Below, piece after piece: positions 7,559-21,239 of a DNA stretch of 64,000 bases. Under the pieces are notes generated by a model. The model was given only the letters and a program-made list of their open reading frames with translations. It did not search any database and was not told the origin of the DNA. Position numbers and translations under genes: made by a program. Source of the DNA: Candidatus Poribacteria bacterium. Lineage in GTDB: Bacteria > Poribacteria > WGA-4E > WGA-3G. Position 1 is the stretch's first letter. Every line of letters begins with the position of its first letter. The stretch lies in NCBI GenBank assembly GCA_028820845.1, contig JAPPII010000074.1:1-64000 (forward strand), written 5' to 3'.

Positions 7559-8164
7559 CTATGCTTTTTGTGATACCATGCTGGCGAGAATGCCGAGAAT
7601 TTTGTCACAGCGTTCCAGCATATAAGTTTCCATGTCAATGTGGAGTCGCTTGCCTTCCAATTTGAGGAAGAGCCAATGCGTCCCCGTTGTGGTAGCCCCA
7701 TAAACACATGAAATGTCGTTCTCTTGTTCGGTATTAAAGCGTTGCGCAGCGATCATCTCCGCGACGCACTGTCCAAGTCCTATTATGAGATCATCCTTTT
7801 TCGCTTCAATAAGGATGATAACAGGTGCCTCCAAATAATATTGATTTGGGGACAGACTCACCAAAAAATCACACACGCCAGTCAAGTCGTTTTCGGCATC
7901 AACATTGAAATCAATACCCGAAAAAAGACTGATGCGGTGTTCAAAGTGCTCCCGGAGTTCAACGAGTATATCGGCGACAATCATTTCTGACTTTGCCTTC
8001 TCTGTACCTATCGCAACGGCTAACGGGACCTTCTTTGCCAACGCCTTGATGAGTTCCGAACTCGGCTCCACCAACTCTGTTTTGGCAAAGAGGCCTATAG
8101 ACTGAACTATTTCCAATTGAAACGTTTTTTGTGCTGCTTGTAAAGTGAAATTGCTATAAGCCAT
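7559..8164 (-). CDS. putative PD-(D/E)XK nuclease-fold protein
   Basis: A 201-aa protein I do not recognise by name. A nuclease-like core is suggested by E60 (SEMIVADIL), D99 in LTGVCDFLVSL and the E-x-K pair E120/K122 in VIILIEAKKDDL, followed by an alpha helix with a conserved-looking GQCVAEMIAA. That order (E, D, ExK, helix) is the pattern of restriction-endonuclease-like folds, and the hydrophobic strand before ExK fits. The C-terminal half (YGATTTGTHWLFLKL) resembles solitary proteins annotated only as hypothetical in other bacteria. It is convergent with the aldo/keto reductase and 78 bp downstream of trpA. DNA cleavage is inferred, not shown. Confidence 0.55.
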   Translation of the reverse strand: MAYSNFTLQAAQKTFQLEIVQSIGLFAKTELVEPSSELIKALAKKVPLAVAIGTEKAKSEMIVADILVELREHFEHRISLFSGIDFNVDAENDLTGVCDFLVSLSPNQYYLEAPVIILIEAKKDDLIIGLGQCVAEMIAAQRFNTEQENDISCVYGATTTGTHWLFLKLEGKRLHIDMETYMLERCDKILGILASMVSQKA

Positions 8165-8242
8165 GTGTTGAGTCCTTTATGCGGTCTCGATATCCACCTT
8201 CACACATTGGAAGACAGGTAGATACAGAAACAGGATCACACT

Positions 8243-9043
8243 TTATGCTTTCACACCTGCTGTTAACTCCGATGCGAATCGTTTCACCGCATTAAGTAAT
8301 TTCGCTTCGTCGTTGATATGTTCTTCGATAACATTGACAATCGCACTTCCCACAATCACACCATCGGCAATCTCCGCCACCTGTTCTGCCTGCTCAGGCG
8401 TTGACACACCGAAACCGACACTGATGGGCTTATCCGTATGTTTTCGCAACTCCGCGATCGTCGGCGCGATTTCGTCTGACAACATCGCCCGCGCCCCTGT
8501 CACACCCGTCAGTGAAACACAATAGATAAATCCTGTACTGACCGATGCGATCAGTTGCATCCGTTCCGGTGGACTTGTCGGGGCAACCATGAAGATCGTA
8601 GCGAGGTTATATTGCGGTGCGATTTCAAGGAGCGATTGTGCTTGTTCTGGCGGTAGATCAGGAACAATTAAACCATCAACACCTACTTCGCATGCAGCCT
8701 TGCAAAACGCCTCTTCCCCCATCCGGAAAATTGGGTTATAGTAGCTCATCAAAGCGATAGGAATTTCCGTCTGTGGGCGGAGATCTGCCACCATTGCCAA
8801 AATCTGCTCCAGTGAGATACGATGTGTAAGGGCGCGTTCGCTTGCGCGTTGGACAGTCGGTCCGTCTGCGATTGGATCGGAGAAGGGGACACCGAGTTCG
8901 ATAAGGTCTGCCCCAGCTTCCTCGAGGGTGAGGAGAAGTTTGTCGGTAAGTTCAGGATTTGGGTCTCCAGCACAGAGGTAGGGCATAAATGCGCTGGCAC
9001 CTCGGTCTCGGAGTTCTTGAAATTTTTTGTCAATTCGATTCAT
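8243..9043 (-). CDS. trpA: tryptophan synthase alpha chain
   Basis: The 266-aa alpha subunit cleaves indole-3-glycerol phosphate to indole and glyceraldehyde 3-phosphate; indole is then tunnelled to TrpB. The catalytic pair falls at the classical positions: E49 in DLIELGVPFSDP and D60 in ADGPTVQ. The phosphate-binding GVTGAR and GFGVSTPEQ segments are present, and the length is standard. No trpB, trpF or other trp gene is adjacent, so the pathway genes are dispersed here. Confidence 0.97.
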   Translation of the reverse strand: MNRIDKKFQELRDRGASAFMPYLCAGDPNPELTDKLLLTLEEAGADLIELGVPFSDPIADGPTVQRASERALTHRISLEQILAMVADLRPQTEIPIALMSYYNPIFRMGEEAFCKAACEVGVDGLIVPDLPPEQAQSLLEIAPQYNLATIFMVAPTSPPERMQLIASVSTGFIYCVSLTGVTGARAMLSDEIAPTIAELRKHTDKPISVGFGVSTPEQAEQVAEIADGVIVGSAIVNVIEEHINDEAKLLNAVKRFASELTAGVKA

Positions 9044-9219
9044 TATGTATACGTGGGTCTCGGCTTCCTGTTGTGTTTTTTAAATTATACCCTGCAAGAA
9101 CCGAATTGTCAAGAGGTTGCTGGTTTACAAAACACTTAGCCGATTGCTATAAGCGTTTCCTCGATTTCGAGAGGTAGCTCAAAAAAAATAAAAGCGTTTC
9201 AATATTCTTGAATTTACTT

Positions 9220-11874
9220 TTAGATGAGTTCCACGTTAATAGCAGATAAACCCCCACCCTTCGCCGTATGATTTAGCTCAAATTCTACTCTTTGGTTTGG
9301 TTGCAGAGTACTAATAGATCGGTCATGAACCTCCTCTATATGCACAAAAATACTTCGTTCAAAACTATTTGATCTTATATAACCAAAACCTTTATCTTCG
9401 TCAAATTTAGTTACGACTCCTTGATACCATTGACCCATTGCAAATTCATAGAGACCATGTCTATATACAATCACTAGGCATTCTCTGATTTGCATATAGA
9501 TGGCATCTTTATCAAAGTCTTCTATTGTTCCTTCAAGCTGATGCCCATAACGAGTAACGGGAAACACTGTAATTTGCCTATTCTGTGCAGATTTAAGGAA
9601 CCTATCTTGGATACTAAGCCGTTCTTTTCGAGTGTGTGGGGGACCTTCTAGTTTTTCTCTTCTGACAGAATGCAAGGTTTCAATGTAAGGTTCCACCACC
9701 GGCCATGATGCCGATGAGCAAGCAAAAAGAATGCTTGATTTTTCTAATGTCTGCCTTTCATTGGAGCGATCAACACCTATGAATGTGTCAACAGATTGTT
9801 CGATTTTTGACAGTTCTACCGATTTTGTGTAAGTGACAAACACTGTGGGTTGGTAGTTATCTGATTGCAGCATTGAAACCCACCGTGGCTCAACTTTGGG
9901 TTTAGTCTTGGACTCTGATTTGGGTTTAGTCTTGGACTCTGAAGTATGGCCTGAGAGTTTGGTTTCACGTTCAACTTCAGGTTTAGTAACTCGACCAATA
10001 AAGTGTTCAGGGGAAGGCCATATCTCATGAAAACAGTCTAATAACATCCTCTCTCGCTGCCTAATTTGTGCTACGTCCCACGTGTTATTATTCTCATACT
10101 TTTCACATATCTCTTTGTTCAGTATAATATCTGCGTTATCACCTTCTGACAACTTCCTTTTTTTATCAAGAAACGAAAGTTGGTTTGGAAGATACTCCGT
10201 GCAAAAGACTAGATTCCCTATGCTAAATGAATTCTCTAGCCTATACTGTTTTAATGGAGGCATTATTTGCTGCACGGACAAAGCACTTATAGGTTGAATG
10301 ACACTCTCCTGATCATCGTCCCTAGTCCGGCGTAAAAAATCCTTAAGATAGAACGTGATTTCTTTCGGTTCCTCTGATGGATTTTCTTGATTCCAACTTT
10401 CAATCTTCCAAAGTTCAATTCGATATAAAATGTAACATAGCATATTCCAAGCAGGTATTTCAACACGGGGTCCGCCATGGCGTATTTGATATCCAACCCT
10501 CCGCAAACCATTCAAAACTGCACCATCATGTTGCCACCGTTTACCTTCACCTGGTTTGCCTTGCCGAAATAGAAATTCTGCAAATTCTTCAACTCTAAAT
10601 TTTCCAAATACTCTACTTGCAGATTCACCGCTGTTTTGATTGGGAATTAGGTGAGAAAAGAAATTGTTTATTCTTCTACATACATGCTTGTCTTCATTAA
10701 CTCCATTACGTAGTAAACCCCGCACGATGTAAGACTCCAACATAGTAAAAACCTTGGTAAGTTCACTATCACATAAGTCAACTTCATTTCTGATGAACAA
10801 CATGAATGGGTGCAAACTCGTAAGATTAAGATTGTCAAAAATAAGATTAAGATCCTCATGAAACTGTAGTCGGTAAGTTTTCATCTTAGGATCAGTCATT
10901 TCCTTATAAAACACCGCGTAATTTTTTAATTGCTCAAATTCATATTTAATATCCTGCTCATCGGTTAGTGCCTTACTATATTCCCAATATAACTCAAAAG
11001 GTTTTACGTTCTTTTCAAAACAATCAGGTCCCTGTTTTGCCATCAGAAACGACCGGAAAAACGATTCAAGTTTATCTTCATCCCAATACTGAGAATCGTT
11101 TTCAAAAACCCAGTAATCCTTATAGAAACGCTCAGCTTCATTTTCAGCGCGCAGGAACAGATCATTTCTCAGGTAATCGAACTCCGAAAGTTTCCTTCCG
11201 GTCGCATTAATCGACGCAAATACTTGTTCGGGACGCTCATCTTCACTACCGAGTTCTAGATTAACAAGCATAAAATTGTCTGTGATAGAACGGAATAGGC
11301 GACGCATTTTTTCAAAAGCGGGATTTTCTCCGAAATATTCTCGAATCACATTTGCAAAATGGATGTAAGCTCCAAGAATCCTATGCTCATCGGAATTTGC
11401 TCCGTTTTGCCTTTGCAAATACTCCTGCCAATACTCTCCAGAGATGACTTGCTTGAATGCAGGTTGATCGAAGTCTGTCGGAACAAATGTAAATTCATAA
11501 TCTGGATCGTCTATTAAGACATCTTCGTCATTTATTATGTATTTGGATGCAGCACTTGCCAATTTACTTTGTTGAGTATCATCATTTTGTGTTTGGCATA
11601 GATCCCTAATAACGCACAGGATGATTTGAAAGGTTGCAAGGCGTTGCTGTCCATCAATCACTTCATATGCCTTCTTGCCAATAGAACGCGTCACAATAGG
11701 CCCTGTGAAATGCGTAGGGTGATCTTCACTTCTTATTTGAAAAAGGATATCCTTCCAAAGGGTATCCCAATTTGTTTCATCCCAAACATAACGTCGTTGG
11801 TAGTGCGGCACTCGATAGTGCACATTACTACTAAACAATTCATCAATACTGTTAGCTTGCGCATTAATCGACAT
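9220..11874 (-). CDS. GmrSD-like DUF262 protein with DUF1524 remnant, Hfq-like domain and cold-shock domain
   Basis: An 884-aa multidomain protein. Residues 1-250 are a DUF262 (GmrS/ParB-like) domain: PHYQRRYVWDETNW at 23-36 and the nucleotide motif DGQQR at 74-78. Around 530-620 the outline of a DUF1524 (GmrD, HNH) domain persists (SIGNLVF, N-x-x-LSF, then IWPSP ending near 622), but the catalytic E-H of the usual 'EHIMPQ' is Q535-Q536, so the nuclease is probably dead. A basic linker with KSESKTKPK repeats follows. Residues 755-815 align with Hfq: IQDRFLK matches Hfq QDPFLN, GHQLEGTIEDFD matches the Sm1 motif, and VYRHGL matches VYKHAI. Residues 816-884 are a cold-shock domain with RNP1 KGFGYI and RNP2 IFVHI. 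A strong AGGAGG precedes the ATG. It is the last gene of a minus-strand cluster with a TIR-like protein and a shorter paralog. Confidence 0.85.
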   Translation of the reverse strand: MSINAQANSIDELFSSNVHYRVPHYQRRYVWDETNWDTLWKDILFQIRSEDHPTHFTGPIVTRSIGKKAYEVIDGQQRLATFQIILCVIRDLCQTQNDDTQQSKLASAASKYIINDEDVLIDDPDYEFTFVPTDFDQPAFKQVISGEYWQEYLQRQNGANSDEHRILGAYIHFANVIREYFGENPAFEKMRRLFRSITDNFMLVNLELGSEDERPEQVFASINATGRKLSEFDYLRNDLFLRAENEAERFYKDYWVFENDSQYWDEDKLESFFRSFLMAKQGPDCFEKNVKPFELYWEYSKALTDEQDIKYEFEQLKNYAVFYKEMTDPKMKTYRLQFHEDLNLIFDNLNLTSLHPFMLFIRNEVDLCDSELTKVFTMLESYIVRGLLRNGVNEDKHVCRRINNFFSHLIPNQNSGESASRVFGKFRVEEFAEFLFRQGKPGEGKRWQHDGAVLNGLRRVGYQIRHGGPRVEIPAWNMLCYILYRIELWKIESWNQENPSEEPKEITFYLKDFLRRTRDDDQESVIQPISALSVQQIMPPLKQYRLENSFSIGNLVFCTEYLPNQLSFLDKKRKLSEGDNADIILNKEICEKYENNNTWDVAQIRQRERMLLDCFHEIWPSPEHFIGRVTKPEVERETKLSGHTSESKTKPKSESKTKPKVEPRWVSMLQSDNYQPTVFVTYTKSVELSKIEQSVDTFIGVDRSNERQTLEKSSILFACSSASWPVVEPYIETLHSVRREKLEGPPHTRKERLSIQDRFLKSAQNRQITVFPVTRYGHQLEGTIEDFDKDAIYMQIRECLVIVYRHGLYEFAMGQWYQGVVTKFDEDKGFGYIRSNSFERSIFVHIEEVHDRSISTLQPNQRVEFELNHTAKGGGLSAINVELI

Positions 11875-12097
11875 CTCTAAATCCTCCTAATTTTACTTTC
11901 ATTTAGTACGAAAAACGACGGCTGCCAAATTTCATTAAAAAAAGCACGTATCGGTCATTTTACCTATAAGTGTATATAACCAGAGGGTCCTCACTCAGCA
12001 TTAGGGTATTTGACACCTGTCGAATTTGAGAAACAAAACTTGTCTTAACTTTACGAATTTTTGGTTTAAATAAACGGTAGCACTTCAAAGATCCGCT

Positions 12098-13624
12098 TTA
12101 AAGAAAGTAGGAAGGGGATGGCCACACAGAACTAAAAAGGCTAACAGGGCCATCAGATCCATCACCTAAAGCCAAAAGGTCAGCAATTTCTTGTAAAAGT
12201 TTCATATAGAGACCCCAATTTAGCGGTTTCTGGCCATACCGTTGCTCTTCATTCCCAGTCATTTGATAAAACATGTAAGTAATGAAATCCGCATTTTTGG
12301 AATTCACATTCTCAAAGGCAGTCGCAACATCCTTGTCGTCTGGCCAGCCCCCGCATGAATTATAAAGACATTTTGCGAATGAGTCTTTGGAGAAGCTGCT
12401 CTTGTCAGACATCACAGAAGAAAAGAAACCGTCTATCGCCTTGTAGCTGCTCTTAATTATCTGTGTATGACTATATGTTGCATCTTCAAGAACAAGCATT
12501 CGCCTCACTATATATGACTGCGCAAGCCAGCAAACTTCGTTTAAATCATTCTCCTGATTGTGCTTTACGTATAATAGGAATGAGTCCAAATCACGAAGGT
12601 TAAGATCTTTGCAAAACCTCTCGTGGGTCTTAAAACTTGTTTCACATCGTAACTGTCGATAGGAATTTGCCCATCTACTTAATTCTTGAAATTCATATTT
12701 GATTCCTTGTCCGGTGGTTAGTTCTTCTCTATACTGTTGATAGACTTCAAATGGTTTTACATTCTTTTCAAAACAATCAGGCCCCTGTTTTGCCATCAGA
12801 AACCTCCGGAAAAACGAATCTAACCTATGTTCCTTCCAATAATCTGGATCCTTTTCAAAATCCCAATGAGCCTCATAGAAATCCTCAGCTTTATTTTCAG
12901 CGCGTAGGAACAGATCGTTTCTCAGGTAATCGAACTCCGAAAGTTTCCTGCCAGTTGCATTAATCGAGGCAAATACCTTTGCCGGATGCTCGTCTTCACT
13001 ACGAAGGTTTATATGAATGAAACTGAATCTATCTGTAATGGAACGAAATAGTCGACGCATTTTTTCAAAATCGAGATTGTCTCCCACATATTCTTGAATC
13101 AGATTTGAAAAATGGTCATAGGCTTTAAGAATGCTATGCCCATCGGAATTTGTTCTGTTCTTCCCATACTCTTTGGAGGTGACTAGACTAAATGCAGGTC
13201 GATCATGTTCTGTCGGATTGAATGTGAATTCATAGTCAGGATCGTCTATTAAGACATCTTCGTCATTTACTATGTATTTAGCTGCAGAACGTGCCAACGT
13301 TCGTTTTTGAGGATCATCTTGTGTGTTGCATAGATCCCTGATAACACAAAGGATAATTTGGAAGGTTGCAAGGCGTTGTTGTCCATCAATCACTTCATAT
13401 GCCTTCTTACCAATAGAACGCGTCACAATAGGCCCCATAAAATGGGTTGGGTGGTTCTCCTCTTCTTGTTGTTCTTTTATTTTTAGTTGAAAAAGAATAT
13501 CCTTCCAAAGCGTATCCCAATTCATTTCATTCCATACGTAACGTCGTTGGTAAAGCGGCACTCGATAGTGCATATTACTACCTAACAATTTATCAATAAG
13601 AGAACTATGTTCATATAATAGCAT
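12098..13624 (-). CDS. short DUF262 protein (paralog of the adjacent gene)
   Basis: A 508-aa protein very similar to the N-terminal half of its downstream neighbour. It shares PLYQRRYVWNEMNWDTLW, VIDGQQRLATFQIIL and KVFASINATGRKLSEFDYLRN, and stretches of DNA are almost identical. The DUF262 DGQQR motif is intact, so NTP binding or hydrolysis is plausible. After about residue 330 the two diverge. The DUF1524 core seen in remnant form in the neighbour is missing here, yet the chain still ends with the equivalent WPSPSYF, as if the HNH region had been removed internally. It has no Hfq-like or cold-shock tail. AAGGG lies about seven bases before the ATG. It lies 131 bp after the 164-aa gene and 223 bp before the long paralog. 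Confidence 0.85.
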   Translation of the reverse strand: MLLYEHSSLIDKLLGSNMHYRVPLYQRRYVWNEMNWDTLWKDILFQLKIKEQQEEENHPTHFMGPIVTRSIGKKAYEVIDGQQRLATFQIILCVIRDLCNTQDDPQKRTLARSAAKYIVNDEDVLIDDPDYEFTFNPTEHDRPAFSLVTSKEYGKNRTNSDGHSILKAYDHFSNLIQEYVGDNLDFEKMRRLFRSITDRFSFIHINLRSEDEHPAKVFASINATGRKLSEFDYLRNDLFLRAENKAEDFYEAHWDFEKDPDYWKEHRLDSFFRRFLMAKQGPDCFEKNVKPFEVYQQYREELTTGQGIKYEFQELSRWANSYRQLRCETSFKTHERFCKDLNLRDLDSFLLYVKHNQENDLNEVCWLAQSYIVRRMLVLEDATYSHTQIIKSSYKAIDGFFSSVMSDKSSFSKDSFAKCLYNSCGGWPDDKDVATAFENVNSKNADFITYMFYQMTGNEEQRYGQKPLNWGLYMKLLQEIADLLALGDGSDGPVSLFSSVWPSPSYFL

Positions 13625-13755
13625 ATCTAAACCCTTTTTAGCAGAATTTGCGAGTTTTCAATAGACTCAGGCACTTTTTAATGTTATCGTATTTGCAAAT
13701 TTTTTGCAAGTTAAATTTTTTGAAAAAACCACGAATCGGCATGAGTCATTGATAT

Positions 13756-14250
13756 TTACACACTATCCTTTGTTTCCTCAAGGTCAGTTAAATCCTCAAC
13801 CCCAGCGATGTCTGCTAACATTTGAGAATACTTGCGTAACTCCGCCTGCAGCGCGTTGAGTTCTTGGCGGAAAACGGCACGTTCCGTTTCGTCCTCAAAG
13901 TCGCCTGCCAGACTTTTCCGATGCCACTTTGCTGTGAAAGGACGAACAACTTGATTAAGAACAACAATCGCGATTTTTGTGAAGTTTATACACTCTGGCC
14001 CGTGTTCTCTGATAACTTTTCTTGTGGTTGCAAACAGTGAATAGACGCTGTCTAAAGCCGTTTTTTCATCGCCATATTCAATAGGTAAGAGTTGTGCGGT
14101 AATCCGTGTTAACAATTCGATATAGAGTGCCCAGGCAGCGTTTTTGTCAGCTGCTTTTGGGGTCCACTCCATTTGTAGGAAAGGAGGCGTGATCTTCAGA
14201 GAAGACATTCCCCATTTTTCAAGCCAATTTGAGAATTTCATTTTTGCCAA
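13756..14250 (-). CDS. uncharacterised 164-aa TIR-partner protein
   Basis: I cannot name this protein. It is soluble, begins MKFSNWLEKWGMSSLKIT, and has a central largely helical region (WALYIELLTRITAQLL) and a charged, probably coiled-coil C-terminus (ERAVFRQELNALQAELRKYSQML). Its start overlaps the end of the TIR-like gene by 13 bp, which implies translational coupling and a stable functional pairing. A regulatory, adaptor or target-sensing subunit for the TIR protein is a reasonable guess; no catalytic motif is visible. Confidence 0.75.
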   Translation of the reverse strand: MAKMKFSNWLEKWGMSSLKITPPFLQMEWTPKAADKNAAWALYIELLTRITAQLLPIEYGDEKTALDSVYSLFATTRKVIREHGPECINFTKIAIVVLNQVVRPFTAKWHRKSLAGDFEDETERAVFRQELNALQAELRKYSQMLADIAGVEDLTDLEETKDSV

Positions 14251-14789
14251 CTATCTCCAGTACGGTTTTTGCCAAACAGTAGATCGGAATTATGGGGATT
14301 CAGATTCTCCTGTTTCCGCCGCTTGAAAGCTTCATGTATCCACGCTTGTACGAGATTAGGGTTGGTATGCCAATCGTACAATTTTGCATATCCGCATTCT
14401 GCATTACGATACAAACGCGGTGGTATAATATAGGGGTTGTATTTATCCCTACCATAATCGCAATGGGCAGGCAAAAAAATACCGATAAGTCCAGAACGGT
14501 CACTTGCCTTTGTGTGACTTATGCTCGCCGCAATTTCCCAATCTACGTGTTTTCTTTTCCACGTCTCTGTCCCAATCAAAACCACCGTCACCGTGGAATC
14601 TTGAAGGTAATCGTCCCGGATTATTTGACGGACAGTTTCTGTCTTGGTGTTGGGATCGATATCATCATCTTGAACGGATCTCGACTCCATGATGTGGTGA
14701 ACCTCTGAAAATAATTCTTCAAACAGATCTTTATACTTTTGATCGTTTTCATGATGGTAACTCACGAAAACCTTATGGCGATGAGACAT
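14238..14789 (-). CDS. TIR-like domain protein (DUF1863 / MTH538 type)
   Basis: A 183-aa protein made of a single TIR-like fold. The first strand KVFVSYHHENDQ, the segment STVTVVLIGTETWKRKHVDWE and the following helix match the TIR-like family (PF08937) to which the Thoeris sensor ThsB belongs. E85 in VDWEIAAS occupies the place of the catalytic glutamate of NAD-consuming TIR domains. The family is known to cleave NAD or make cyclic-ADP-ribose-type signals on infection; that activity here is inferred. No ThsA (SIR2/SLOG or Macro effector) is visible nearby. GGGGGA lies upstream of the ATG. It heads the minus-strand cluster, with the next gene overlapping its end. Confidence 0.85.
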   Translation of the reverse strand: MSHRHKVFVSYHHENDQKYKDLFEELFSEVHHIMESRSVQDDDIDPNTKTETVRQIIRDDYLQDSTVTVVLIGTETWKRKHVDWEIAASISHTKASDRSGLIGIFLPAHCDYGRDKYNPYIIPPRLYRNAECGYAKLYDWHTNPNLVQAWIHEAFKRRKQENLNPHNSDLLFGKNRTGDSWQK

Positions 14790-14822
14790 ATAAAATCCCC
14801 CGTTTTTATGTAAGAAGTCATA

Positions 14823-14851
14823 TTGAGTAAAACATAAGGATGTGGTAAAAT
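14823..14851 (+). promoter_or_regulatory. candidate sigma-70 promoter ahead of the IS remnant
   Basis: TTGAGT (14823-14828) and TAAAAT (14846-14851) are separated by 17 bp. It points into the decayed transposase gene and away from the TIR-like cluster. Five of six bases match consensus in each hexamer; function is inferred. Confidence 0.45.
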
Positions 14852-14924
14852 AGTGGAATTAGAGCAGATAGTTTATGTCTTTTTTTTCCGTTTAGATCGC
14901 TATTCCTTTATGAAAGGTGCTATT

Positions 14925-15796
14925 ATGTTAGAAGCAACTCAAAAGGAGACCCCAAGATACAAGGGTATTCCAAAGCAGGTTTCCCGCAAGGATTTTAATC
15001 GGTATATTTTGCCACATCTATCGAAACGCATCAAAGGTCCGAAGCCGAAACTCTCCTTCTATAAGATATTCAACTATATCCTCTATGTTTTACATACTGG
15101 CATGTAATGGGATCGACTCCGAACCCGGCGGAATGAACTCCATTGGTCGAATGTCTATAAATGGCATAATCGTTGGTCAAAAGACGGTTCTTATGAGAAA
15201 CTCTTTGAAGCATCGGTGATACATCTGCTGGAGACTGAACAACTTGACACGTCTCGTCTTCATGGAGATGGATCCAATATGGTCGTCAAAAAAGGGGCAA
15301 TGGCACTGGATATTCAGGACACAAACACCAGAAAGGTGAAAAAGAACTGACCATCACTGATAATCATGGATTCATCATTGCTTGGATAACGACGCACCCC
15401 GTCAACCAACATGATACAACGCTTTTGCCGCAAGCCTTTACCGGTCTTATGACCTTGAGTCATCGGATTGGCATGGATCTGAAGGCATCCGCGCTCACGC
15501 TGGATTCTGGGTTTGATTCTAAGGCGAATCATGACCTTATCAAAGCACATGGGTTGATTCCAGTGATCTATCCAAACCGGCGGAATGCTAAGACCCCTAT
15601 CGTCATTGCTCGTAAGTTCCGGTGGTTTAGAAAAGATTTATACAAAGACCGATATAAAGTTGAGCGAACTTTCGGGTGGCAAGACACTTATCGGAAGCTC
15701 GCACTGAGCTATGATAAACTCAAAGAAACGCGTTTAGGGTTTCGATATTTAGCATATTCTATGATTAACTTGCGTATAACTTTCAACAACTCTTAG
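14925..15796 (+). pseudogene. decayed IS5/IS4-type DDE transposase
   Basis: The first reading frame (MLEATQKETPRYKG...) has AAGG before its ATG and runs to an in-frame TAA at the codon after HTGM. Translation resumes directly as WDRLRTRRNELHWSNVYKWH, so this is a single nonsense change. A second lesion is a minus-one shift at the A6G4 tract near 15287-15296, after which the frame reads GNGTGYSGHKHQKGEKELTITD and then DLKASALTLDSGFDSKAN and KVERTFGWQDTYRKL. The last carries the DDE glutamate region. The A6G4 tract could be a programmed frameshift site in the intact element, but the nonsense codon makes this copy non-functional. Clear terminal inverted repeats were not found. Confidence 0.8.
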
Positions 15797-15893
15797 CGCG
15801 TACTCGCTATGAGTTCTAAAACTATACACATAATGTCCGGTTAGGAGTAAAAGGAAATGGGACCGTGCTACGACACATATAATGCCCGGAGGA

Positions 15894-16289
15894 CTAATCG
15901 ATCGATGCCTCAGTAATGAAATCCCTTTCCAACATAATAGTTCGCCTGACAAAATCAATCTGTAGGCGATATTCTCGTAGCAAATGGGTTCCTATGAGAA
16001 TTTCACTACCGACCACGAAGGTTGCCTCTGCCTGAATCATCTTGCCATCAAACGGAAAATTAACCCGGTAAAGTTCCTCCACGATCCTTTGCCCGCCAGC
16101 TAATACAGAAGTCACTTTTCCTATATATTGTGGGTTTAATCTATCTCGTAAAGCTTCAGACAGTTCCAAATCTCCGTTAAAACCTGTATCGATAGTCGCC
16201 TCCCAGGCTTGCCCCTCTATGGAGAGAGTGATTACTGGTACTCCTGCATCTGACACTCTTCCTTGAATCACCGTCGCCCACCTTTCCAA
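15894..16289 (-). CDS. retropepsin-like (clan AA) aspartic protease
   Basis: A 131-aa protein with the single-lobe aspartic protease pattern: the active-site triad D34-T-G in ATIDTGFNGDLELS, a flap-like segment, and the second hydrophobic-hydrophobic-glycine motif EILIGTHLL. Like retroviral proteases it would need to dimerise. Its start overlaps the end of the 83-aa gene upstream by 22 bp, so the two form a coupled pair. In bacteria such small clan AA proteins usually sit in two-gene cassettes of unknown role. Substrate unknown; a self-processing or partner-cleaving role is possible. Confidence 0.75.
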   Translation of the reverse strand: MERWATVIQGRVSDAGVPVITLSIEGQAWEATIDTGFNGDLELSEALRDRLNPQYIGKVTSVLAGGQRIVEELYRVNFPFDGKMIQAEATFVVGSEILIGTHLLREYRLQIDFVRRTIMLERDFITEASID

Positions 16290-16519
16290 AGATAGGCTTC
16301 GTAGCCGATACGTTCAAAGAAAAGTGGGGAAGTTAAGCCTTCAGTACTACGTTGTTCAACAATGTCTATTGCAGAATCGCCGAACCAAATTCGTCCGCTT
16401 TTCGGATCGATCCCAGCTGTCTGTCCAATACGGTCCGTAATATCGTGCTGTTTCTGGTATTCCGCCCAAATCTGCTTGCATTTGCGTGAGTCGGCTTCTG
16501 TCCAGTTTGAGTGTTTCAT
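16268..16519 (-). CDS. small partner protein of the aspartic protease
   Basis: An 83-aa protein that I recognise only as a conserved small hypothetical. The C-terminal half contains GRIWFGDSAIDI and ends in a basic KGGRR. The N-terminus is charged and helical (EADSRKCKQIWAEYQKQHD). AAAGGAGAAATC lies upstream of the ATG. It overlaps the protease gene by 22 bp. It may be the substrate, inhibitor or antitoxin-like partner of the protease; nothing in the sequence decides between these. Confidence 0.65.
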   Translation of the reverse strand: MKHSNWTEADSRKCKQIWAEYQKQHDITDRIGQTAGIDPKSGRIWFGDSAIDIVEQRSTEGLTSPLFFERIGYEAYLWKGGRR

Positions 16520-16565
16520 TATTGATTTCTCCTTTCCGTTGCAAGCTCAGTTTGAAACTTAGCAA

Positions 16566-16590
16566 AACGGGCAATAAATTGCCCTACTAC
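16566..16590. repeat. palindromic repeat, family B copy 2
   Basis: Exact 25-bp inverted copy of 6456-6480, with GGGCAAT/ATTGCCC arms, followed by the same CTACGAAC extension. It sits between the RHH-type gene and the 83-aa gene. Confidence 0.85.
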
Positions 16591-16596
16591 GAACGG

Positions 16597-16860
16597 TTAG
16601 GTCCCTATGTCTAATGCTTCATTAATGCGTTCATAAATCCATTCGTCAATAAGTTCGCCCGCTGGTATCCCGCGTTCCTCAGCAAGTTTTATCACGACCT
16701 TGGCATCTTCGGATGTTAGCCAAACAGAGACTTTGAATTCACCGCCCTGTTTCAAGAGCGTTCCCTCGCGTTGCTGCATCTCTTGGGCCACGAAGTATTC
16801 ATGGTCATCGTAGACATCTTCGTATTCTTCAACTTCGGGATCTATGATGTGTTTAAGCAT
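16597..16860 (-). CDS. small acidic ribbon-helix-helix-like protein
   Basis: An 87-aa protein. The C-terminal part KVSVWLTSEDAKVVIKLAEERG, then IPAGELIDEWIYERI, has the strand-helix-helix layout of CopG/Arc-type DNA-binding proteins, while the N-terminus is very acidic (EEYEDVYDDHEYF). It starts inside the end of the ATPase gene (8-bp overlap), so the two are coupled. It could be an autorepressor or antitoxin-like partner of the ATPase-nuclease. The RHH call is by eye. Confidence 0.6.
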   Translation of the reverse strand: MLKHIIDPEVEEYEDVYDDHEYFVAQEMQQREGTLLKQGGEFKVSVWLTSEDAKVVIKLAEERGIPAGELIDEWIYERINEALDIGT

Positions 16861-18472
16861 TCTCAGTGCTCCTATCTGAGGGCTTTTTTTGTATCACAGG
16901 AATGACATAACTCCGAATCGTGAAACCTTCCACCGTCTCTGTCTCTACCCGTGGTTCCGAGGCTTCACGGTGATCAAAGACGACATAGTACCCTTCTATC
17001 GCGTTCTCCAATTTGAGATACGCAGCGAGCTGCCTTTTGCCTGCTTGATATCGTCTCTCGCCTCTCCAAATCTTGGTCTCAACGATATATTTTCGTTGGT
17101 TGTAGACAATACAAAGATCTATCCGCCCACGACCCATTTGGACTTCAAGGAACATGTTGCCCCCCACCGCTTGGACGAACCCATCAAGGTAGGTGAGAAG
17201 GAGATGTCTGCCGACAGATTCTTGTGGCGTTTGCGGCACTTGCAGAATTTGAAAGCCTGCCCGCGCGATGAAGTCCCTGAAGTTATCAAGTAACGACTCC
17301 ATGTCAATCTGTCCCGTGTTCGTGAGGTAAGCCCGGAAACCTATGATGTTGTTTTCAGGGAAATATTTCTCCTCAAGCCCATTTACCGTAGGCTTGAATG
17401 CTTGTAGGATAGCATATAGGTAAATTGGGTTAGCAATGTCACACATATTGTCTGTGCCTTTGGAAATAACGCCATAGGTGGCAAGGATGTTGATGAGCTC
17501 ATCGTGCGGGTTGAAAGGTACCCCATCCTCGTGTGCTGTGATTCTCATCAGAATTTTTTCAAAGCGCGGATCTTTACGAATATTAGTTGTCAGATGCACA
17601 ATGTTGGTGTTTTGGCTGTAGAGGAGTTGTGTGTGTGCCGTTATAAAATGCGACATCGTGATCGTTTCCGCTTTCGGAATATCAAACTCCTCTGTGAGAA
17701 TCTGCGCGAGTCGATTGACAAGCACAGGTTGGCCGGCAGTCTGTTTATGAATAGATGTGATAACCGCTGGATTGAAGGTTTGGCCGACTTCATCCGTGTA
17801 TTGTCCAAGCAGGTCTTGTACTTCCTCTCGCGTGAAGTTCGGTAAATGGAACTCATCCTGGATATTGAACGGAGAGATGGATCGATCGTAGTTAAGTTGG
17901 TTGATACTCTTAACGCCGACAATGCTGACGCTATGGGGGCATCGCGGTTTACCAGCAATGTAGATGTGGCGGAGGGTGTGGAGAAAATCACTCAGTGCGG
18001 CTTGCGGAATGCCGTCAAACTCGTCGATAACGATGACAACCTTTTGCTCGTTACATTCAACGTCCAAAAAATTTGCAAACTCCCTAAAGAATTCCAACAG
18101 GGAAAGGTGATCGGCAAGCCCTGTATTTGTCAAAAATTCCGTTAAAGCATCTGAGGGAGCAATGTCACGGTGCTGGAAAACCTGTTCAATTCCTTGGCGA
18201 ATCTGTTGGTAGAGATGCCCGTAGAAAGTGGAAGGGGAAAGGTTTTTATAGATATCAAAATTCAGCGGAATCGGGAAATAGGTAGGTTCTTCTGTGATGA
18301 GTCTGTCCAAGGCACGCTGAAAGAAGGTCGTTTTACCGGTTTGACGCGGCGCAAAAATGACAATATACTTACCGTCTTTAATGCGGTTGATGAAATCGTT
18401 AATTTTCTCGATGCGTGCGACGACATAGTTTTCCGCTGGATGCACGGGACCTTGGGTGCCAAAACGTCTCAT
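16853..18472 (-). CDS. AAA-type ATPase with C-terminal PD-(D/E)XK nuclease domain
   Basis: A 539-aa protein. The N-terminus has Walker A APRQTGKTT (41-49) and Walker B VVIVIDEFDG (about 147-156), in the style of STAND/archaeal-type ATPases and AAA-ATPase-like (PF14516) proteins. A winged-helix-like middle follows. The C-terminus reads GRIDLCIVYNQRKYIVETKIW and then a basic helix with GKRQLAAYL, the D and E-x-K pattern of restriction-like nucleases. Proteins of this build are frequent in genomes rich in mobile elements and are thought to be defence or selfish factors; a specific activity is not known. It is coupled to the small RHH-like gene downstream. Confidence 0.8.
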   Translation of the reverse strand: MRRFGTQGPVHPAENYVVARIEKINDFINRIKDGKYIVIFAPRQTGKTTFFQRALDRLITEEPTYFPIPLNFDIYKNLSPSTFYGHLYQQIRQGIEQVFQHRDIAPSDALTEFLTNTGLADHLSLLEFFREFANFLDVECNEQKVVIVIDEFDGIPQAALSDFLHTLRHIYIAGKPRCPHSVSIVGVKSINQLNYDRSISPFNIQDEFHLPNFTREEVQDLLGQYTDEVGQTFNPAVITSIHKQTAGQPVLVNRLAQILTEEFDIPKAETITMSHFITAHTQLLYSQNTNIVHLTTNIRKDPRFEKILMRITAHEDGVPFNPHDELINILATYGVISKGTDNMCDIANPIYLYAILQAFKPTVNGLEEKYFPENNIIGFRAYLTNTGQIDMESLLDNFRDFIARAGFQILQVPQTPQESVGRHLLLTYLDGFVQAVGGNMFLEVQMGRGRIDLCIVYNQRKYIVETKIWRGERRYQAGKRQLAAYLKLENAIEGYYVVFDHREASEPRVETETVEGFTIRSYVIPVIQKKPSDRSTENA

Positions 18473-18611
18473 TTTCCCCTCCCTTAGCAGTGTATTCTTT
18501 TATATTTTTCTTTCCTTTTTTTGCTAAAGGATACCATGAAAACTTTGCCTATGTCAAATTGAATTCACGGGTTTTAGAGCAGACGAATGCACGTAAAACT
18601 ACAATAAAGAG

Positions 18612-18633
18612 GGCGAGGCACGAAGACCTCGCC
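18612..18633 (-). terminator. candidate intrinsic terminator downstream of clpB
   Basis: GGCGAGG and CCTCGCC pair around an 8-base loop. On the minus strand the stem is followed by CTCTTTATTGT, a moderate U-rich tail. It lies 24 bp past the clpB stop codon. Confidence 0.65.
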
Positions 18634-18656
18634 TTGCATGGTTTGTGTCAGCTAAA

Positions 18657-21239
18657 TCACGCCTTCCTGAAAACGAACCCTTCACCTTCAAAATCCACAG
18701 CAATCGCATCACCGTCCTGGCAGTTACCCTCTAACATCTCAATAGCCAACGGATTGAGAATATCGCGCTGGATTGTCCGTCGGAGCGGACGTGCGCCGTA
18801 GACAGGATCAAATCCACGTTTCACCAACTCCGCGTTCGCAGGTTCTGTGAGTGTCAAGGTCATCTCCTTCTCCGCGAAGCGAAGACTCAGCTGCGCCAGT
18901 TCCAGTGTGACAATCCGCTGCAACGCCTCAATGTCGAGCCGGTCAAAGATAATCAGATCGTCAATACGGTTCAGGAATTCCGGTGGGAAATGTGCTTGTA
19001 CGGCTTCCACTACCTTACGCCGAATTTCCTTTCCGTCCAAGAGCGCATCACTAATCCATTGACTACCGATATTGGAAGTCATAATAACAACCGTGTTCTT
19101 GAAATCGACTGTGCGTCCTTGCCCGTCCGTCATTCTACCGTCGTCGAGCATCTGGAGTAAGACGTTGAACACCTCTGGATGCGCCTTCTCTACCTCGTCG
19201 AGTAAGATGACACAATACGGATGTCGTCGGACTGCCTCTGTGAGCTGCCCGCCTTCGTCGTAGCCGACGTATCCCGGCGGCGCGCCGATGAGTCGCGAGA
19301 CGGTGTGTTTTTCCATGTACTCGCTCATGTCGATACGCGCCATAGCGTTTGCGTCGTCGAAAAGGAACTCCGCAAGCGATTTGGCGAGGTGCGTTTTGCC
19401 AACACCCGTCGGACCCATGAAGAGGAAAGAACCGAGCGGACGATCCGGGTCGCCGAGGCCGACGCGGGCGCGCCGGATTGCGTTAGAAACAGCACTCACT
19501 GCTTCGTCCTGTCCAATGACCTGTTCGCACAGGCGTTCTTCCATGTGAAGGAGTTTCTGCGTCTCACCTTCCATCAACCGATAAACAGGGATACCCGTCC
19601 ATTTCGCTACGATTTCGGCAATATCCTCTGCACTGACTTGCTCTTTCAACATCTGTGTGCCGTGCGCATCTGTTTCCAGGGCTTCTCGGATGGTGCTGAG
19701 TTGGGACTCCAGTTCCGGTATTTTGCCGTATTCCAGTTCTGAGGCTCTACCGAGATTGCCCGAACGTTTGGCTTGTTCCGACTCAATACGGAGTGCCTCA
19801 ATCTGTTCCATGAGTTCACCGATCTGCATCAAATTCGCCTTTTCGTTCTGCCACGTAGCTTTCAGGGCGTTTGCTTTCTCTTTAAGTTCAGCAAGTTCAG
19901 CAATCAGTTTTTCAAGTCGTTGTTGGGACGCGGTGTCCTCTTCTTTCTCCAATGCTTGCTGTTCGATTTGGAGCTGGATGATACGGCGTTCCACCTCGTC
20001 AATTGCCTCCGGCACGCTATCGATTTCAATCCGCAGGCGCGATGCCGCTTCATCCACCAAATCCACGGCTTTATCGGGTAAAAACCGTTCCGAGATATAG
20101 CGTTTTGAAAGCGTCGCAGCAGCAACAATTGCATTGTCCTGAATTTGCACGCCGTGATGTGTCTCATAGCGTTCCTTCAAACCCCGCAGGATCGCAATCG
20201 TGTCTTCCACCGACGGTTCTTCAACCTGTACGGGCTGGAATCTGCGTTCCAAGGCGGCATCCTTTTCAATATGTTTACGATACTCATCGAGCGTGGTTGC
20301 ACCGATGCATCGGAGTTCACCGCGCGCCAGTGCCGGTTTGAGCATATTCGAGGCATCAACGGCACCTTCCGCGGCACCCGCACCGACAATGGTATGCAGT
20401 TCGTCAATAAACAGAATGACTTGTCCTTCTGCCTGTTCTATATCGGCAAGGACAGCTTTCAATCTGTCCTCAAATTCACCGCGATATTTACTGCCGGCAA
20501 TAAGTGCGCCTAAATCGAGTGCAATGAGCCGTTTCTCGCGAAGGCTTTCTGGAACATCGCCGTCAGCGATGCGTTGTGCGAGTCCTTCCACAATCGCCGT
20601 TTTCCCGACACCGGGTTCACCGATGAGCACGGGGTTGTTTTTCCGCCTGCGGGAAAGGACTTGCATCACACGACGAATTTCATCATCACGTCCGATAACC
20701 GGATCGAGTTTTCCTGAAATCGCTTCTTGCGTTAACTCTCGACCAAATCGGGTGAGTGCCTGATACTTATCCTCTGGATTCTGATCGGTTATCCGTTGGT
20801 TGCCACGGATGTCAACGAGTGCCTTGAGGATTTTATCTTTCGTTACACTCGCTTCCCGAAGGATTTTGCCGACCTCGGTTTGCTTAGCTTCAGCACACGC
20901 GATCAGGAGATGTTCTGTACTGACGTATTCGTCTTTAAGTGCCGTTGCCTCTTTGAAGGCACCGTCTAATACGGATTGCAGTGCAGGAGCAATACGCATT
21001 TCAGCTGCCGCGCCTTGCACATTGGGTGTCTTTTGAACGAGATCCTCAATTGCTGAGGTAATTCCGGGAATATCAGCACCTAATTTCTGGAAAATCGGTG
21101 TGACAATTCCGTCAGTTTGCCCAATGAGAGCCAACATCAGGTGTTCAACACCCAGTTCGGGGCTTTGGGCATCTGAGGCTAAACTTTGTGCTGTCTGGAG
21201 TGCTTCTTGTGCTTTAATTGTAAATCTATCAAATCTCAT
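18657..21239 (-). CDS. clpB: ATP-dependent protein disaggregase ClpB
   Basis: An 860-aa Hsp100 chaperone that, with DnaK, pulls proteins out of aggregates. The order is complete: N-domain ([16 protein letters not shown] and its repeat), NBD1 with Walker A GEPGVGKT near 205 and [15 protein letters not shown], a long coiled-coil middle domain (about 405-525), NBD2 with Walker A GPTGVGKT near 605, and the C-terminal small domain with YGARPLRR. The coiled-coil M-domain separates it from ClpA/ClpC. Expression is normally heat-inducible; here an inverted repeat lies upstream but no HrcA-type CIRCE site is recognised. Confidence 0.98.

Follow-up and report, generated by a model that had tools for sequence, protein, structure and literature searches.

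The defence systems GmrSD, BrxU, SspE and DndI read marks on DNA and then cut or nick it, and the locus described here raises the question of what a relative of these enzymes may do when its nuclease has lost the catalytic residues and its C-terminus carries domains of RNA-binding type. The gene in question (gene B, 9220..11874, minus strand, 884 aa) lies in the window, that is, the whole stretch of 64,000 nucleotides analysed, and its host is a Candidatus Poribacteria, a sponge-type bacterium. Its ATG is preceded by a good Shine-Dalgarno sequence (AGGAGG), and its product consists of a DUF262 domain, a degenerate HNH domain, a Sm-like domain, an Hfq domain and a cold-shock domain (CSD), in this order. 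A first-pass annotation had described it as a GmrSD-like protein that lost its HNH catalytic pair and gained Hfq-like and cold-shock domains, and the motifs it relied on were found at the positions given: QQIMP at 535-539, IQDRFLK at 755-761, VYRHGL at 803-808, KGFGYI at 828-833 and IFVHI at 842-846.

The N-terminal assignment is as clear as had been claimed. DUF262 (GmrSD_N, PF03235) was matched by Pfam with an E-value of 3.8e-32 at residues 11-240 (11155..11844, minus strand), and the nucleotide-site motif DGQQR is intact at residues 74-78 (11641..11655, minus strand). Farther along the chain, a remnant of DUF1524 (GmrSD_C, PF07510) was detected at residues 551-612 (10039..10224, minus strand) with 19.2 bits for a cut-off of 23, the match covering the second half of the profile only. 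The full-chain AlphaFold model had a mean pLDDT of 83.6, and its residues 1-626 were matched by VIA to DndI (9jfl) with a Z of 21.5 over 523 aligned residues (rmsd 10.2), and to SspE (6jiv, 7drs) with Z values of 17-18 and rmsd of 19-20. Profile comparison with DndI gave an E-value of 5.7e-35.

Where HNH relatives have their catalytic E-H pair, the alignments and a motif scan located Q535-Q536 (10267..10272, minus strand). In the alignment, VQQIMP of gene B stands against TLEHIYP in DndI and TIEHVAP in SspE, and live relatives carry EHIMP, EHVMP or EHIIP at the QQIMP site by both alignment and motif scan, in such a way that the proposed loss of the HNH pair holds against all of them. On the second strand, gene B retains the GN (SIGNL, 551-555) and has lost the LN after it. 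A single HNH change in DndI, N541A, abolishes protection (PMC11662687), so that, by analogy, DNA cutting by the HNH site of gene B is unlikely. The DGQQR motif was intact in every DUF262 paralogue covered by the motif scan (the L039 protein, without its N-terminus, lies outside it). In DndI and SspE, DUF262 hydrolyses NTP upon recognition of the mark and thereby permits the HNH to act (PMC11662687, PMC13251355); the R87A change in DndI reduces phage resistance (PMC11662687), and NTP hydrolysis in SspE drives a conformational switch (PMC13251355).

The end of gene B was then compared with known folds. The Hfq domain occupies residues 755-807 (9454..9612, minus strand; Pfam E 1.8e-6, 27.9 bits for a cut-off of 27) and the cold-shock domain residues 818-882 (9229..9423, minus strand; Pfam CSD E 6.3e-15), NCBIfam concurring with Pfam on both, and the latter bears RNP1 KGFGYI and RNP2 IFVHI. 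A family profile of the Hfq segment retrieved a solved Hfq from the PDB at an E-value of 1.4e-11, which, together with the match of the AlphaFold model to Hfq, argues that the similarity is more than chance. Modelled alone, the C-terminal part reached a pLDDT of 92.7, and Foldseek placed it at an rmsd of 0.7-1.8 Å from Hfq crystals and matched it to CspA/CspE with E-values of 2.6e-5 to 4e-5. The chain end was matched to CspA by VIA with a Z of 13.5 and an rmsd of 1.4 over 69 residues. Pfam, NCBIfam, the PDB profile and the AlphaFold/Foldseek matches thus confirm the Hfq-like and cold-shock domains of the first-pass annotation, and the outcome that it had named as a refutation, a lack of Sm/Hfq or cold-shock matches, did not occur.

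Ahead of them, at residues ~664-720 (9715..9885, minus strand), AlphaFold placed a helix followed by five strands with a pLDDT of 83-97, an order that recurs in the Hfq domain. This segment found no match by sequence among the solved structures of the PDB, hhalign gave it a probability of 0.4% against Hfq, and the VIA lists for the tail were filled by cold-shock domains, in such a way that VIA hardly probed it. Because it has no sequence tie to Hfq, a second Sm-like domain preceding the Hfq domain, and with it the tandem, is a predicted fold only.

From its domains, the tail of gene B would be a nucleic-acid-binding element whose ligand is probably RNA. Cold-shock domains and Hfq are also able to bind single-stranded DNA. 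Against RNA counts that several canonical RNA-contact residues are changed: in alignments made by eye, the position of Hfq F42 is occupied by D, and those of CspB W8, F30 and F38 by K, I and I.

Upstream of gene B on the same strand lies gene A (12098..13624, minus strand, 508 aa), a paired DUF262 paralogue with an intact DGQQR and no tail, whose HNH core is deleted and whose last helix is kept. The A-then-B order on the same strand was found in seven pairs (the window, L034, L035, L037 twice, L038 and L041), with gaps of 44-164 bp in the other loci and of 223 bp in the window. These sequences indicate that gene B is the second half of a pair conserved in Poribacteria, formed by a short untailed partner and then a tailed protein with a dead HNH. 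The two genes of the window compare at 63% over residues 6-413. In each pair compared, the likeness was greatest in the first ~300 residues (74-90% at residues 51-100) and the proteins diverged beyond, and this confinement fits DUF262 parts that have to match each other. An apparent remnant of an IS3-like transposase end was seen by eye between both genes at 11960-12040.

Gene B is no lone oddity, being a member of a Poribacteria-wide set. The same domain order was found in L033 and L034, so that two Sm-like domains and a CSD follow a dead HNH in three loci, the window included. A CSD alone follows the dead HNH in L037, L038 and L041 (L038 and L041 as judged from the tail sequence), and S1 domains do so in L035 (seven) and L037 (three); extra copies of CSD or Sm-Hfq were found in the tails of L036, L039 and L104. 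The last is an 1126-aa DUF262 protein (L104:3715-7095, plus strand) with Sm-Hfq-CSD twice in tandem. In other genomes the same architecture persists at 46% identity. For the family of the window, 49 out of 59 genomes gave some match, mostly to DUF262 alone or to the tail module alone. A scan of a genome collection for the tail, based on short conserved peptides and sensitive to close relatives only, returned three loci, all from Poribacteria, and the Sm-Hfq module was absent from the other long DUF262 proteins of Poribacteria at 20 further loci.

The tail is an exchangeable part, made by two Sm-like domains and a CSD, by a CSD alone, or by three to seven S1 domains; like the paired gene A and the first Sm-like domain, this exchange goes beyond the first-pass annotation. 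The DUF262 domain of gene B groups with that of gene A and with genes of L035 and L034 (bootstrap 100), and its tail is nearest to those of L033 and L034; these different nearest kin show that tails or N-termini were exchanged.

The loss of the nuclease and the presence of a tail go together to a large extent, although they are separable. Among full-length proteins, the gene A partners left out, 11 had a dead HNH and a tail, none a dead HNH without a tail, three a live HNH and a tail, and 10 a live HNH without a tail (Fisher p 1.5e-4, a value that ignores kinship). The HNH residues were lost in 11 out of 11 proteins with a degenerate HNH and a tail, and the live untailed proteins terminate directly after DUF1524. 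The live tailed ones are L040 (Sm-Hfq) and L042 and L021 (CSD-like), and their existence means that tail and dead nuclease can be separated; the "probable dead nuclease" of the first-pass annotation stands for gene B itself. In the tree, live proteins group together (UFBoot 85), and the dead ones also fall into one group, with weak support (57), which is possibly a single clade, so that the association could stem from one event or a few.

Between clpB and trpA, the A/B locus forms an insert of low GC: genes A and B have a GC content of 39% (34-36% at third positions) for about 51-52% in clpB and trpA. The flanking genes are common to L033, L054 and L055, with clpB/trpA bounding the site in the window and in L054. 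The dead tailed form occupies the shared site in the window and L033, and a live-type DUF262-DUF1524 protein does so in L054 (as a split ORF) and L055. By its occupants, the place between clpB and trpA looks like a variable defence-type site. No effector conserved beside the A-B pair was found among the loci compared, no Ssp or Dnd modification genes were named among the Pfam-annotated neighbours, and no linked non-coding RNA was found by Rfam at an E-value of 0.5 within 8000-18700.

Other genes of the locus were also inspected. A ThsB-like TIR gene (14238-14789, minus strand) overlaps a 164-aa gene without known domain (13756-14250, minus strand), both upstream of gene A on its strand; no ThsA was found among the annotated neighbours of this TIR gene that would make a Thoeris pair, and the TIR gene was discarded as part of the system as it appeared in the window locus only. 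An AAA_35 ATPase whose C-terminal part weakly resembles NERD/PD-(D/E)XK lies at 16853-18472 (minus strand), and a related gene adjoins the DUF262 genes of L034. Adjoining trpA, a 201-aa protein (7559-8164, minus strand) matched the PADLOC family PD_DExK with an E-value of 2.6e-50, and an apparent DDE transposase fragment, an IS remnant, was noticed by eye farther up at 15425-15796. A viral origin was dismissed, the tail having no relative in IMG/VR and phage records matching DUF262 only partially.

Taken together, these data suggest that a defence protein has been diverted from the cleavage of modified DNA and now senses RNA or single strands. Our preferred reading, to which we give a probability of around 40%, is that A and B are a nuclease-dead derivative of the GmrSD/DndI/SspE group, in which an NTPase switch is governed by a nucleic-acid-sensing tail. 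Gene A would contribute a DUF262 NTPase without HNH and gene B a second one with the degenerate HNH fold and the tail of two Sm-like domains and a cold-shock domain; our guess is that the resemblance of their DUF262 domains lets them join in a complex. The tail of gene B may then detect RNA or other single strands associated with infection, as S1 arrays or a cold-shock domain by itself would do in the sister systems, and its binding would alter NTP hydrolysis at the DUF262 sites. The output would be the NTPase switch, in place of DNA cutting, leading to arrest of the infected cell or to recruitment of another effector. The simplest reading is that RNA or single strands trigger an NTPase switch, since the HNH is lost in both A and B, the NTPase sites are kept and a tail has been added. 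What points to a possible defence role of the pair is its family, its site and its neighbours. If this reading is true, the NTPase is the core of a DUF262 system and RNA becomes possible as its trigger.

The main rival, unlikely in our opinion, holds that the Sm/Hfq part serves assembly, as an adaptor, and does not sense RNA, and that proteins with the same tail (DUF262 proteins, the Sacsin-type ATPase, UvrD helicases and short Sm-Hfq proteins) co-assemble through Sm rings. It draws on the spread of the Sm-Hfq module, which is also found on Sacsin-type ATPases beside a SNF2 helicase, on UvrD-GrpE-like proteins (with S1 domains in two out of three) and standing alone in short proteins of 176-296 aa, a gene for such a short protein lying near a SNF2 helicase and Sacsin-type pair in L045, L047 and L051. 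The effector-associated domains (EADs) of multicellular bacteria have been proposed as homotypic adaptors (PMC7159879), and the partial loss of RNA-contact residues would also agree with a structural role. However, the sister systems carry S1 arrays or CSDs, which are nucleic-acid binders and form no rings, and the short Sm-Hfq gene is absent from the genome assembly of the window. Rather improbable is that DNA restriction persists, with a live DUF262-DUF1524 enzyme cutting in trans, the tail holding single strands and A/B acting as regulators: the genome does keep such an enzyme (G000:C114, EHIIP), and the CSD is generally known to bind ssDNA too, but the enzyme is distant (30% over residues 8-131) and unlinked, and the HNH was lost together in A and B, as though cutting were unneeded.

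Most genomes of the group own a core protein of ~320 aa with a CSD at its start and an Hfq-like sequence at its end, apparently the group's own Hfq/CSD protein (L103:9198-10151, minus strand, with orthologues in L105 and L106). Its existence means that the fusion of gene B could belong to RNA control, in which case A and B would be RNA proteins with a housekeeping or regulatory role outside defence; we consider this quite improbable, as the pair has a patchy presence, a low GC and a variable site shared with DUF262-DUF1524, TIR and AAA-NERD genes. The same core protein and gene B are the only two CSD proteins found in the window genome, and this could be read as an integrated decoy, in which the tail with two Sm-like domains and a CSD mimics the core protein in such a way that phage factors attacking the latter trigger DUF262. 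Such a decoy is very improbable, given the low similarity between both (32% in the CSD), the different domain order and the S1 tails of sister systems. Finally, the lost catalytic residues and the IS remnant seemingly present between A and B might indicate a decaying, functionless restriction gene pair, but this is hardly credible with both ORFs intact, DGQQR intact in all copies scanned and an architecture conserved in other genomes.

With respect to known systems, DndI (PDB 9jfl, PMC11662687) resembles gene B in its DUF262 with DGQQR, its helical middle part and its HNH scaffold; by contrast, gene B has Q-Q for E-H, a 260-residue Sm-Hfq-CSD tail and a paired paralogue, and no Dnd modification genes were annotated next to it. 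SspE shares the DUF262 fold and DGQQR but has a live HNH, senses phosphorothioate DNA and lacks an RNA-type tail. The type IV restriction enzymes GmrSD and BrxU share the Pfam pair PF03235 and PF07510, whereas in gene B PF07510 is below its cut-off, the catalytic pair is lost and an RNA-type tail is added; the extra domains listed in a survey of GmrSD are DUF4268, DUF4357 and DNA_binding_1 (PMC4619093). Dazbog, Menshen and PD-T4-2 (PMC10952713), compared by description, resemble A/B as DUF262 proteins without the DUF1524 nuclease, but no tail of the gene B type is described for them in PMC10952713, and Dazbog and Menshen were not among the best 25 PADLOC families. The NTP-dependent conflict systems of PMC7159879 also place OB-fold S1/cold-shock RNA-binding domains on defence-type proteins, but their core enzymes are others, and Hfq and DUF262 are unmentioned there. 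In the literature searched, no system with the domain order of gene B was found, in agreement with the earlier claim, nor any description of DUF262 with Hfq, S1 or CSD. Within this literature the combination of DUF262 with Hfq/S1/CSD thus appears new, S1 and CSD being already known as RNA-binding parts of conflict systems (PMC7159879); Hfq gains a place in defence-type fusions, and a modular set of tails is indicated. Two candidates from elsewhere were discarded: an apparent fusion of Hfq and CSD from a Rhizobium plasmid (H29) was spurious, the alignment having run into a plain cold-shock gene, and for DUF262 with S1 on plasmids the named proteins among the matches listed were ribosomal S1 or S1-domain proteins.

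More speculatively, and in our view improbably, Poribacteria may use common RNA-binding tails (Sm/Hfq, S1 arrays, CSD) on unrelated defence enzymes as a shared sensing or Sm-ring code, affecting DUF262 pairs, UvrD-GIY-YIG pairs and Sacsin-type ATPases; in many cases a short enzyme would be accompanied by a paralogue with a tail. If true, such a code would turn DNA-directed enzymes into RNA-triggered immune switches.

Several loci outside the DUF262 set carry related modules. In L046:4178-10079 and L063:4008-11388, a short UvrD-GIY-YIG helicase is followed by a longer tailed UvrD paralogue with a GrpE-like region, an Hfq-type segment and S1 domains, the same short-then-tailed logic as in the DUF262 genes. 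The short Sm-Hfq gene near the SNF2 helicase and the Sacsin-type protein was located in L045:7739-15857, L047:5002-12750 and L051:232-10504, a site common to many Poribacteria genomes and otherwise often occupied by a type ISP restriction enzyme; the Sacsin protein of L045 and L047 itself bears the Sm-Hfq module. A T5orf172/GIY-YIG-type protein (L065:9142-10044, minus strand) has a C-terminal cold-shock domain by Pfam, and a further protein with a CSD match (L111:26-697, plus strand) seems to resemble it in its N-terminal part.
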